Origin: Leptospiraceae bacterium | GTDB lineage: Bacteria; Spirochaetota; Leptospiria; Leptospirales; Leptonemataceae | Reading direction: 5' to 3' | Assembly: GCA_025059995.1 (NCBI GenBank) | Contig: JANXCF010000003.1 | Location: 62,001 to 126,000, forward strand | Length of the DNA stretch: 64,000 bases | Part shown: positions 50,467 to 58,445 of the stretch, in pieces | Position numbering within the stretch: position 1 is the first letter of the stretch | Layout of the letters: each line of letters begins with the position of its first letter | Position numbers and translations under genes: made by a program | The notes under the pieces: generated by a model | What the model saw: the letters and a program-made list of their open reading frames with translations, nothing else | Databases searched by the model: none | What the model was told of the DNA's origin: nothing

Positions 50467-51765
50467 CTACAAAAGAAAAATCAATGCCATAAGTAAAAAT
50501 ACCGGTTGTAAAATCAAGATTGAATAGATCATATATCCACCAAAGCTAGGCATTTTTATTCCTGCTTGTTCGGCAATTGAACGAACCATAAAGTTCGGTG
50601 CATTTCCGATGTAGGTATTCGCACCCATAAATACAGCTCCTAAAGACACTCCCACTAAAAGCATAGGATGATTTTGTATGAACTCTTGCACAGTTAGAGC
50701 TCCTTGTGCCGTAGTGAAAAACACCAAATACGTTGGAGCATTATCCAAAAAGCTTGAAAAAAGTCCTGTTGCATAGAAATACTCAATTGGGGTATCAAGT
50801 CCTAATTCTCCTCCATGAATTCGAAGGAGTATCAAAGCCGGAACCATCGTAATGAAGATACCAATAAATAATGCTGCAACCTCGATAATAGGATAAAAGT
50901 TGAAGTCATTTTCTTTTCGATATTCTACGGGTGTTGTGAGTTTTGAAAGTAAAATTAAGATCAAAAACAAAGGAACTTGGATGAGTTTATAGTATTCGTT
51001 TTCATGAATGAGGGATTTGAAGGGTTCATAGTTTTCATTGACGAATGCAACAACAAGAATCACACCGAGCAACCAAAGAAAGTTAATATATCCTTTAATC
51101 GTGATGGGCTCAACTTGTGTATCATCAGCTCTGAGATCTTCTTTGGTTTCTTTTTTATACATGATGCTATCCCAGATATAGTAAATGACTAATAAAGTAC
51201 CTACAGTAAACAACCATTCAGGGAAAAGTCGAAACGTCCAAGTAAACGGAACTCCTCGTAAATATCCCAAAAACAAAGGGGGATCACCCAAAGGCGTCAA
51301 AAGTCCACCAATATTTGAAACAAGAAAGATGAAGAAAATCACAGTATGCACAACGTGTTTTCTTTCAGAGTTGGATTTCAACAAAGGACGTATCAAAACC
51401 ATAGAAGCTCCAGTTGTTCCAATGAAAGAAGCAACTACGGAACCAACGAATAAAATTATGGTATTGTTCATTGGAGTGGCTTTAATGTCCCCACGAACTA
51501 AAATCCCACCACTTATGTAAAACAACGCCCCCAATAACGAAACAAAAGGAATGTAATCAAGAATGATTTGGTGTTTTAAATCCCCTAACCTTCCAATCGA
51601 AATCAGATATATAGCCACAGGTATCCCCAAAACCATTGAAACAATCAGTTTATTCAAGTTGCTATGCCACCAGTGTTCTGCAACTAAAGGTAATATCGCA
51701 ATCGCAAGCAATATCAACACAAAGGGTATGACTGACCAAAATGCGGGTTCTATACCGTTATGCAT
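50467..51765 (-). CDS. NhaD/ArsB-superfamily sodium:proton antiporter
   Basis: This 432-residue protein has roughly twelve hydrophobic helices and fits the ion-transporter (CitMHS/NhaD) superfamily. Diagnostic stretches are FIGTTGASMVLIRPLL, GGLLTPLGDPPLFLGYLRG and SSFLDNAPTYLVFF, plus a late GANTYIGNAPNFMVRSI. It probably exchanges Na+ for H+ across the inner membrane, although organic anion transport cannot be excluded. An AAGGAG ribosome site lies 6 bases before the ATG. The calcium/sodium antiporter gene lies upstream on the same strand. Confidence 0.82.
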   Translation of the reverse strand: MHNGIEPAFWSVIPFVLILLAIAILPLVAEHWWHSNLNKLIVSMVLGIPVAIYLISIGRLGDLKHQIILDYIPFVSLLGALFYISGGILVRGDIKATPMNNTIILFVGSVVASFIGTTGASMVLIRPLLKSNSERKHVVHTVIFFIFLVSNIGGLLTPLGDPPLFLGYLRGVPFTWTFRLFPEWLFTVGTLLVIYYIWDSIMYKKETKEDLRADDTQVEPITIKGYINFLWLLGVILVVAFVNENYEPFKSLIHENEYYKLIQVPLFLILILLSKLTTPVEYRKENDFNFYPIIEVAALFIGIFITMVPALILLRIHGGELGLDTPIEYFYATGLFSSFLDNAPTYLVFFTTAQGALTVQEFIQNHPMLLVGVSLGAVFMGANTYIGNAPNFMVRSIAEQAGIKMPSFGGYMIYSILILQPVFLLMALIFLL

Positions 51766-54947: not shown

Positions 54948-56384
54948 ATGAATTTCCCCAACGACATTCCTAATATAAAAACTTTTGGTGAGTTAAAAGA
55001 AAGTGGATATCGCTATCGAAGTATTAAAGAAGAAATGGCTCAGAATTTAGCAGAAAAATTAGCTAAAAAACAGCCCATCTTTCCACAAATTCACGGATAT
55101 GATGATACTGTGCTTCCACAACTATATCACGCAATCTTAGCAGGACATAACATTGTTCTTTTAGGTGAGAAAGGACAAGCAAAAACAAAAATCATGCGCT
55201 CTTTGGTGGAACTATTAGACCCTTATTTTCCCATCATAGAGGGAACTCCTATTCCCGAAAGTCCCTATCGTCCCATCACAAAAATGGCAAAAAAGTTGAT
55301 AGAAGAAAAAAAAGAAAACACTCCCATTCGATGGCTTCATAGAAGTGAAAGATACGGAGAAAAAATAGCTCCAGGAAGCAGAATCTCCGATATCATCGGA
55401 GATATTGATCCTGCCAAGATTATTCATGGAACATCCATGGGAACAGAAGAAGCTCTGCATTATGGACTCCTTCCGAGAATGAATCATGGGATTTTTGCCA
55501 TCAATGAATTACCTGATTTAGACTACTTAGTACAAGTTGCTATGTTTAATATCTTGGAAGAAGAAGACATACAAATTCGAGGGCTTCCTATCCGACTTCC
55601 GCTGGATGTTTGTATTTGTTTTACTGCTAACCCTTCGGAATACACAAGATCAGGGAAAATCATCACCCAATTGAAGGATCGTATTGGTGCAGAAATTCGA
55701 ACCCATTATCCCAAATCAAGAGAAATCGGACTGCAAATCACTAAACAAGAAATCCAAATCCCAAACATAAAACCTGATGTGATTGTTCCAAAGTTTATAG
55801 AAGAAATCATAGAAGAAATTACAATCCAAGCAAGAAGGCATCCACTAATCAATCAAAAATCAGGAGTCTCAGCGAGATTATCCATTGCCAATTATGAAAC
55901 CATTGTTGCATCAGCAAGGAGACGAGCTCTACTTTTAAATCAATCGATTGGATATGCAAGAATGACGGATTTTGGAAACATCTTTAGTTCAAGTTTAGGA
56001 AAGATTGAGTTAGACCCTTATCGAGATGAAGCTGTAACGGAATTTCAAGTGATAATGAAACTCATTGATCTTGCTATTAAAGAAGTTTTTGAAGAGTACT
56101 TTCCAGAAAAAAAATACCATACGGAGCTTGAAAACATTGTAAAACAAATCTACGAGGCAGAAGTTGTTGAAATCTCTGATTCTATGCCATCAAGTGAATA
56201 TAAAAAATTTTTAAAAATAATACCTAGTCTTTTTGACTTACTGCGTGATCAAAATTGGAATCAAAACGATGAACTCATGGCTTCGGGAATTGAGTTTATC
56301 TTTGAAGGTTTGACAACGAAAGAAAAAATTAGCCGCAGAAGATTAGGTGAAGTAGTAAGCTTCAAATCCGTGGATTTATACTGA
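54948..56384 (+). CDS. MoxR/ChlI-type AAA+ ATPase
   Basis: The 478-residue protein resembles magnesium-chelatase subunit I and MoxR-like AAA+ ATPases. Walker A reads LLGEKGQAKTKIMRSL (residues about 72-87), Walker B reads GIFAINELPDL, and sensor 1 reads VCICFTANPSEYT. An inserted segment (about 100-180) lies between Walker A and Walker B, and LKDRIGAEIRTHYP follows. No VWA or chelatase D partner is adjacent. Its stop shares one base with the next gene (TGATG), so it is translated together with the two ArsA-like ATPases that follow. Confidence 0.8.
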   Translation: MNFPNDIPNIKTFGELKESGYRYRSIKEEMAQNLAEKLAKKQPIFPQIHGYDDTVLPQLYHAILAGHNIVLLGEKGQAKTKIMRSLVELLDPYFPIIEGTPIPESPYRPITKMAKKLIEEKKENTPIRWLHRSERYGEKIAPGSRISDIIGDIDPAKIIHGTSMGTEEALHYGLLPRMNHGIFAINELPDLDYLVQVAMFNILEEEDIQIRGLPIRLPLDVCICFTANPSEYTRSGKIITQLKDRIGAEIRTHYPKSREIGLQITKQEIQIPNIKPDVIVPKFIEEIIEEITIQARRHPLINQKSGVSARLSIANYETIVASARRRALLLNQSIGYARMTDFGNIFSSSLGKIELDPYRDEAVTEFQVIMKLIDLAIKEVFEEYFPEKKYHTELENIVKQIYEAEVVEISDSMPSSEYKKFLKIIPSLFDLLRDQNWNQNDELMASGIEFIFEGLTTKEKISRRRLGEVVSFKSVDLY

Positions 56385-57307
56385 TGCTTCCTTTTACCCA
56401 CAAAGTCCTTTTTGTATTAGGAAAAGGGGGTGTAGGAAGAACTACGATTTCTACGGCTCTGGGATTGTATTTCGCTGAATTAGGGAAGAAAACTCTTATC
56501 ATCCAATGGAGTTTAAAGGATCTCATATCACCAATCTTTCAAAAAGAACCCGTTGGTCATAAACATAAAGAAATCTATCCCAATTTATACATAATGAACT
56601 ATGATCCTGAAATCACACTCAAAGAATACTTTGTAGATCATTTAAATATGACGTTATTTTACAAATTCATCATCGAAAATCCGCAAGTGAAGAAGCTACT
56701 TCAAGCAACTCCTGGTTTAGAAGAGGTGTTCTTTTTAGGAAGGATCTTTTGGTTAGTGGAACTAGCCAAAGAAGAACGTGGTTATGAGTTTGATAAGATC
56801 ATAGTGGATACTCCTGCTACAGGGCATGGTGGTGCTCTTTTCGGAGTAATCTCAACGATTTCTAACTTTCAGTTTCAAGGTCCTCTCATTTATGAAACAA
56901 CACGAGTAGCTAAAATGCTTCAAGATCAGGAAAAAGTAGGAACAATTCTAGTGACCCTTCCCGAAGAATTGCCTTTCGAAGAAACAAAAGAACTTTATTC
57001 ATTGATTAAAAAAGAAATGAAACGAAATCCTATAGCTCTTTTTGTAAATAAAAGCATTCAATGGTATTTGAATGGAACCTATAATTTCAATACAAACTTA
57101 TTTGAAAAGTTTGATGTTTATAAGGATACAATCAAAAGTGTTTACTTGTATTTGAAAAACAAGTTTGATTATGAAGTCATGATAAAAAATGAGTTTAAAG
57201 AGAAAACTAACGTTTACTCCATTCCTGATTTGATTTTCATGAAACAAAATTTTGATCAGTTTACGAGAATTCAAAAAATCAAAGAATTTTTCACGGACTA
57301 TGGATAA
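56384..57307 (+). CDS. ArsA/Get3-family ATPase, subunit A (P-loop lysine replaced)
   Basis: The 307-residue protein belongs to the ArsA/Get3/MinD-like deviant P-loop family. Its loop reads LGKGGVGRTTIS (residues about 12-23): the intermonomer signature Lys is present, but the Walker A Lys is replaced by Arg. The switch I segment, usually S(T/I)DPA, reads IIQWSLKDLISP and has lost the Asp. Switch II is kept as IIVDTPATGHGGALF. It is therefore unlikely to hydrolyse ATP alone, and it probably pairs with the following gene, whose defects are complementary. The ATG overlaps the AAA+ stop (TGATG). Confidence 0.85.
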   Translation: MLPFTHKVLFVLGKGGVGRTTISTALGLYFAELGKKTLIIQWSLKDLISPIFQKEPVGHKHKEIYPNLYIMNYDPEITLKEYFVDHLNMTLFYKFIIENPQVKKLLQATPGLEEVFFLGRIFWLVELAKEERGYEFDKIIVDTPATGHGGALFGVISTISNFQFQGPLIYETTRVAKMLQDQEKVGTILVTLPEELPFEETKELYSLIKKEMKRNPIALFVNKSIQWYLNGTYNFNTNLFEKFDVYKDTIKSVYLYLKNKFDYEVMIKNEFKEKTNVYSIPDLIFMKQNFDQFTRIQKIKEFFTDYG

Positions 57308-58445
57308 AAAACCAAAACTTCATATTTTTTTGGGTGCTGGTGGCGTAGGTAAAACCACTCTTTCTGCCAGTTTTTCTCTTTATTTAGCATCCATTGGAAG
57401 AAAGGTTGGTCTATTAAGTATTGATCCAGCGAAAAGACTTAGGACAGCTTTAAATTTTGATAATATCAGTGAAAAAGGTAGCCTTTTTTGGAAGAATGAT
57501 GAAAATGGTGGAGAAATTCGCGTTGCCATATTGAATTTACCTGACAGCCTTAAGCGTTGGATTCAAGATGAAGGTTTAACTATTGAGCACCAAAAACAAT
57601 TATTCGAACATCCATTATATCAGACATTAGCAGAGAAAATTGCTTCAGCAGTCGAAACCTTAGCTCCTATAAGAATGGCTGAATGGATAGAACAATATCC
57701 AGAAACAGAAGATTTAGTCATTGATACAGCTCCAGGTATTCATGCAATAGATTTTATTTTACGTCCCGAAAGGCTACTTGCTTTTTTTGACAGTAAAATT
57801 TTGCAATGGATAAAATGGTTTGGTGGTGAAGAAAAATATATTTGGGTGAATGGTAAAAAGCAGGTTATTTCAGAAAAGAATTTCTTTCAGAAACTACTTC
57901 GAATGAGCGCTAAGTCAATCTTATCTGCCTTAGGAAAAGCGGGTGGTGAAAATATTTTACTGAGTCTTGCTGAGTTAATACTTTTAATGGATCAAATTTT
58001 TTATAAAATGGTAAATCGCCTACAGGAGGCAAGAGATTGGATAAAAAACGAAAACACCTCAGTGTATTTTGTTTTTTCATCAAGAGAAGATTCTGTTGCA
58101 ATAGTATTAGAAATTTATCAAATCTTACAAACTCTTTTTAAACATAAGTCTTTTTTTATATTTAATCAGACTATTCCAGAATTACTTTATCAATCTCAGG
58201 AATGGAAAGACTTTATATCCCAAAATGAAGTACAAAACAAAATTGATATTCTTTTAAGAACATATTTAGAGAATTATCCCAAAATCAAACAAAGTATATA
58301 TGAAAAACTTCATGAAAATTCGATAGAAAAACAAACCATCATCGAAGTCCCTTTGTGGTCCTCCATTGAAACTCAAGACAACCTAAAAATCAAAGATTTA
58401 ATCCAATTAGGTTCTTTAATGAAGCCATCTATATTTTTATACTGA
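57300..58445 (+). CDS. ArsA/Get3-family ATPase, subunit B (signature lysine replaced)
   Basis: I start this at the ATG at 57300, 8 bases inside the previous gene, giving 381 residues that begin MDKKPKLHIFLGAGGVGKTT. The P-loop reads GAGGVGKTTLS: the Walker A Lys is intact but the signature Lys is replaced by Ala. Switch I SIDPAKRL and switch II DTAPGIHAIDF are intact. This is the reverse pattern of the preceding subunit, so together they could build one complete ATP site across a heterodimer interface. The gene also has a helical insert (about 190-240), perhaps a client-binding region. Confidence 0.86.
   Translation: MDKKPKLHIFLGAGGVGKTTLSASFSLYLASIGRKVGLLSIDPAKRLRTALNFDNISEKGSLFWKNDENGGEIRVAILNLPDSLKRWIQDEGLTIEHQKQLFEHPLYQTLAEKIASAVETLAPIRMAEWIEQYPETEDLVIDTAPGIHAIDFILRPERLLAFFDSKILQWIKWFGGEEKYIWVNGKKQVISEKNFFQKLLRMSAKSILSALGKAGGENILLSLAELILLMDQIFYKMVNRLQEARDWIKNENTSVYFVFSSREDSVAIVLEIYQILQTLFKHKSFFIFNQTIPELLYQSQEWKDFISQNEVQNKIDILLRTYLENYPKIKQSIYEKLHENSIEKQTIIEVPLWSSIETQDNLKIKDLIQLGSLMKPSIFLY

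Follow-up and report, generated by a model that had tools for sequence, protein, structure and literature searches.

Get3- and MinD-type ATPases form symmetric dimers with two coupled sites, in which the share of each site in the overall reaction is hard to tell. Get3 itself is a homodimer, encoded by a single gene and complete at both sites, and the Get3/TRC40 proteins serve in the delivery of tail-anchored proteins; ArsA is linked to arsenite efflux and the ars operon, and Get3d carries an extra C-terminal alpha-crystallin-like domain. The signature lysine of Get3 crosses the dimer when ATP is bound, while the attacking water is positioned by the Asp of switch I (PMC10248533), and in SIMIBI dimers each monomer places a Lys or Arg into the site of its partner (PMC9599734), so the rule on which a preliminary description of the present locus relied, that the signature lysine of one subunit touches the nucleotide of the other in Get3/ArsA dimers, is a published one. 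Get3d of Nostoc, which has no CxxC motif, remains an ATPase (kcat 0.28 per min) although its Walker Lys is an Arg and its Asp position is occupied by Glu (PMC10248533). A two-gene system is described from Mycobacterium tuberculosis, in which BagA (Rv3679) and BagB (Rv3680) share the crystal entries 6BS3-6BS5 (6BS3 is entitled 'ADP-bound bacterial Get3-like A and B in Mycobacterium tuberculosis'); the BagA-BagB papers, Hu et al. (2019) and Whitaker et al. (2020), are given here as they are cited in PMC10597346.

The window analyzed here, a stretch of 64,000 nucleotides from a Leptospiraceae bacterium, encodes two adjacent ATPases of the ArsA/Get3 fold on its forward strand. Gene A (positions 56384-57307; 307 aa) is BagA-like and would render a catalytically inactive subunit that acts as donor of a trans-lysine. 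Its P-loop, GKGGVGRTT (56420-56446; G13-K14-G-G-V-G-R19-T-T), retains the signature Lys14 (56423-56425) but carries Arg19 (56438-56440) where the Walker A Lys would stand, and its switch I region, QWSLKDLIS (56504-56530), reads Q41-W-S-L-K-D46 in place of the S-T-D-P-A of Get3 and ArsA, with Ser43 at the position of the catalytic Asp of the DPA motif; switch II (DTPATGH, 56807-56827) is intact. Gene B (57300-58445; 381 aa) is BagB-like, the predicted catalytic subunit, and shows the reciprocal pattern. Here the P-loop, GAGGVGKTT (57333-57359; G12-A13-G-G-V-G-K18-T-T), has the signature Lys replaced by Ala13 (57336-57338) and keeps the Walker A Lys18 (57351-57353), and the switch I motif SIDPAKRL (57417-57440; S40-I-D42-P-A-K-R-L) retains the catalytic Asp42 (57423-57425), followed by switch II DTAPGIH (57723-57743). 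The end of A and the start of B overlap by 8 bases (57300-57307, in the +1 frame, with the ATG of B at 57300 and the TAA of A at 57305-57307), an arrangement consistent with coupled translation. The substitutions in both P-loops, the lost Asp of A, the intact SIDPAKRL of B and the overlap had all been pointed out in the preliminary description, and reading frames, motifs and overlap were verified. Only ArsA and P-loop models of Pfam match the two proteins (ArsA_ATPase, 93.9 bits for A and 56.8 bits for B, against a cut-off of 24.3). Neither protein in the window contains a single cysteine, so the CxxC zinc site of the Get3 type is missing, and CxxC is likewise absent from every A and B protein compared, orthologues included.

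Among 22 genomes of the same family, A and B co-occur in the same 12, spread over five genera, and neither gene was found alone; in all 12 the two are adjacent, with A preceding B. The altered motifs are as constant as the pairing. Every A gene encodes GKGGVGR with T or S as the next residue, and every B gene (12/12, one of which, from genome G203, is a contig-end fragment) encodes GAGGVGKTT together with SIDPA[KR]RL. Lys14 of A and Lys18 and Asp42 of B are invariant across all orthologues, the P-loop and switch II of A are fully conserved, and at the position of the catalytic Asp the A proteins carry Ser or Ala, flanked by an invariant Gln41, Trp42 and Asp46. All six Arg codons are represented at Arg19 among the 12 A genes and all four Ala codons at Ala13 of B, which argues that selection maintains both substitutions. 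Chance or recent mutation of the P-loops is ruled out by this combination of 12/12 conservation and full synonymous codon usage, and a lone decayed pair by the occurrence of A and B in the same 12 genomes; on the sequence evidence, neither chance nor one-off decay accounts for the altered motifs. When 296 Spirochaetota genomes were scanned, DNA coding for GAGGVGKTT turned up in the 12 B genes only, and DNA coding for GKGGVGRT in 11 A genes and one coincidental ORF of an unrelated enzyme (the twelfth A reads GRS), so that none of the other P-loop genes in these genomes was found to carry the altered P-loops. Both lysines and the Asp are present in the ordinary ArsA genes and in most of the single Get3-like genes of Spirochaetota. 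One further locus (L070) held no P-loop ORF, and PADLOC returned no meaningful match.

BagA-BagB is the described pair to which A and B are closest. Searched as single sequences against the PDB, A finds chain A of 6bs3 (Rv3679; E 3e-16) and B finds chain B (Rv3680; E 3e-19) as best match, with the next match to B far behind. Profiles built from the orthologues put 6bs3_B well ahead for B (108 bits vs 71), whereas for A 6bs3_A (87.4 bits) is level with ArsA1 of Chlamydomonas reinhardtii (88.4 bits), which ranks first by E-value. The NCBIfam models point the same way, BagA being matched by 10/10 A proteins and BagB by 10/10 B proteins scanned, although their scores fall well short of the equivalog thresholds (86 of 400 bits for A of the window, NF053622; 89 of 521 bits for B of the window, NF053621); the BagB cut-off was exceeded by none of 21 relatives. 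In a maximum-likelihood tree of 44 domains, the Leptospirales A proteins group with actinobacterial BagA (99/97) and the B proteins with actinobacterial BagB (99/96), both clades being separate from the Spirochaetota ArsA halves and single Get3-like proteins. Since the branches that link the Leptospirales and actinobacterial clades are long (1.4-2.3), these two joins are likely rather than proven. The preliminary description, which had placed the pair among deviant P-loop ATPases of the ArsA/Get3/MinD class, thus had the right fold family but missed the named pair.

The comparison with Actinobacteria (pairs of Tsukamurella, Nocardia and Nonomuraea, together with the M. tuberculosis fragments shown in the PDB matches) separates what is shared from what is peculiar to Leptospirales. 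As in the window, the Get3-fold genes are adjacent and in the order A-B, including in Tsukamurella, although the neighbours of the Tsukamurella pair (RidA, WhiB and a transglycosylase) are unlike those found here. Actinobacterial B proteins have G[AS]GGVGKTT and T[IV]DPA[KR]RL, i.e., the signature Lys is lost and the DPA kept, as in Leptospirales B, and the A proteins have the signature Lys (GKGG) but no DPA, as in Leptospirales A. Unlike Leptospirales A, however, with its Arg in 12/12 proteins, actinobacterial A retains the Walker A Lys (GKGGTGK[ST] in 4/4 proteins) and has Glu, rather than Ser or Ala, at the position of the switch I Asp. Judging from these motifs, all of the Bag group shares the loss of the B signature Lys and of the A DPA, whereas the change of the Walker A Lys to Arg in A, without a switch I acid, marks the Leptospirales clade. 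The reciprocal lysine exchange noted at the outset thus holds in all 12 Leptospirales pairs but not family-wide, as actinobacterial A keeps both lysines, and none of the pairs examined, the actinobacterial ones included, has both lysines in each subunit. A and B can be described as distant, further degraded relatives of BagAB, with a predicted dead partner one step beyond actinobacterial A; this kind of pair is already known from BagAB, and the version of A with Arg and no acid is what is new.

Other members of the fold offer less complete parallels. With Get3/TRC40 of yeast and archaea the pair shares the fold, the deviant Walker A motif and the logic of a trans-lysine combined with a switch I Asp, but yeast Get3 has a CxxC zinc motif at the dimer interface that A and B lack. 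ArsA likewise combines two non-identical Get3-fold halves in a pseudo-dimer, but in a single polypeptide, and the Spirochaetota examples of ArsA have GKGGVGKT and DPA in both halves; the separate genes and degenerate P-loops of A and B rule out ArsA proper. Get3d of Nostoc and Arabidopsis is a single protein that combines an acid at the Asp position with the signature Lys, whereas here a separate partner, B, lacks the signature Lys.

Our preferred explanation, to which we give a probability of about 0.72, is an obligate heterodimer of the BagAB type, in which A and B, both Get3-fold ATPases, share one composite catalytic site. ATP would be held in the P-loop of B (Lys18, Thr19) and attacked by a water aligned by the switch I Asp42 of B, and Lys14 of A would complete the site in trans. 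The mirror site in A would lack the Walker Lys (Arg19), a switch I acid (Ser43) and a trans-lysine from its partner (Ala13 of B), and would either bind ATP without turnover or bind none. As the B site is complete if A gives Lys14, and the A site is without these three elements, one composite catalytic site per heterodimer is the simplest reading. Formation of the complex is expected from homology to 6BS3 and the trans contact from the established mechanism of the family; single-site turnover and a chaperone-like handling of clients are inferred as well. Opening and closing of the pair, as seen in Get3, would be driven by a single ATP per dimer and would serve to hold or release a putative client. 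By analogy, the function would be BagAB/Get3-like. The obligate heterodimer with a trans-lysine from A that had been proposed from this locus alone is partly supported, by the reciprocal losses in every pair, by A and B never occurring apart, by the presence of BagA and BagB in one crystal entry and by the published rule of a lysine that reaches across the dimer.

Whether the A site is dead depends on the combination of losses. The Arg at the Walker position alone is no proof, because Nostoc Get3d hydrolyses ATP with an Arg there; it is the coincidence of the Arg, the missing switch I acid and the missing trans-lysine that argues for an inactive site. The alternative of a heterodimer with two working but unequal ATPase sites, a slow one in A that uses Arg19 and a shifted Asp46 and a fast one in B, draws on that Nostoc precedent, on the invariant Gln41, Trp42 and Asp46 and on the full conservation of the A P-loop and switch II. 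Asp46 lies three residues beyond the lost Asp and might act as a stand-in for it, and the conserved P-loop and switch II suggest that A may still hold a nucleotide. The Nostoc protein, however, retains both an acidic residue at the Asp position and a trans-lysine, whereas A has Ser or Ala and receives an Ala from B, and with three defects coinciding at one site we regard slow turnover in A as unlikely.

More doubtful still is an ATP-binding switch without significant hydrolysis at either site, in which the substitutions would have slowed the cycle to binding only. Mutations that remove one Lys from deviant Walker A ATPases do usually reduce activity, but the B site has all the elements for hydrolysis if A donates Lys14, and the invariance of Lys14 in A and of Lys18 and Asp42 in B is hard to explain were hydrolysis dispensable. 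That A and B are separate homodimers with different jobs, their complementarity being coincidental, is the least probable of the three and very improbable in itself, for although Get3 is homodimeric, the strict co-occurrence in 12/22 genomes, the invariable adjacency and the crystallization of BagA and BagB homologues together speak against it, and a B homodimer would be without any trans-lysine.

AlphaFold models, built from 2-3 sequences, were of low quality. At locus L069 the A and B genes lie in the same frame, and this pair was folded as one chain, with the single TAG read as Ser and an alignment of three sequences; the AlphaFold model is of low confidence (pLDDT 56, pTM 0.45). Foldseek recognized Get3 folds in the halves of this low-confidence model (6bs3_B, TM 0.65 by target length), but the halves were not placed against each other the way those of ArsA are (full-length TM 0.23-0.32), and A modeled alone reached a pLDDT of 39.9. 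The models are too poor for any conclusion on A-B distances and neither back nor contradict the trans contact.

A further reading, which we offer tentatively, is that this is a fully asymmetric Get3-type lineage in which the A site would be dead by three independent losses, its conserved Arg P-loop would keep a nucleotide without hydrolysing it, as a cofactor with a structural or allosteric role, and exactly one ATP would be used per dimer. The Bag family would then show a stepwise route to this state, on which actinobacterial A would be the half-degraded stage and Leptospirales A the fully degraded one. A heterodimer with a different conserved half-site in each subunit makes the trans-lysine testable by changes in a single subunit, leaving the other site untouched. 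The comparison also extends the Bag pair past Actinobacteria to Leptospirales, so the system is probably older and wider in bacteria than the mycobacterial literature implies.

Upstream of A lies a gene for a BchI/ChlI-like AAA+ ATPase (54948-56384, forward strand), whose TGA overlaps the ATG of A by one base (TGATG); the gene downstream of B encodes a YqgE/AlgH protein. Orthologues of the AAA+ gene (66-85% identical) are found in 15/22 genomes of the family, 10 of the 12 with the pair and 5 of the 10 without it, and of the five genera that possess the pair, three have the AAA+ gene next to it, g1 and g5 immediately and g4 at a distance of a single gene. Its presence in half of the genomes that lack the pair rules out a functional unit with A and B, and we treat it as a frequent neighbor that provides context only. 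The intervening gene in g4 (L069:1573-3930) encodes about 790 aa with isochorismatase-like, APH/TCAD9 kinase-like and dual-specificity phosphatase domains. It is next to A in that genus alone, unlinked or absent elsewhere and absent from the genus of the window, and on this distribution a link to conflict systems through it was rejected. Two other ORFs of the window (51185-51520 and 55215-55487) are each nested wholly within a longer conserved gene that runs on the other strand, and are probably spurious.

Two other arrangements of Get3-like genes were seen in Spirochaetota. Genome G174 has a second, unrelated Get3-like tandem (L075:4026-6137), in which one protein retains SVDPQ and its neighbor, with both of its lysines kept, reads STNPVHSL, with Asn for the switch I Asp; this is possibly another asymmetric pair. 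In several Spirochaetota a single Get3/ArsA-like gene follows the gene for a CstA carbon-starvation transporter (L078:3101-6695; also L076, L077 and L079), and at L076, L077 and L078 the next gene encodes a protein of about 210 aa, without a Pfam match where scanned (L078). A functional link is suggested by the recurrence of this order.
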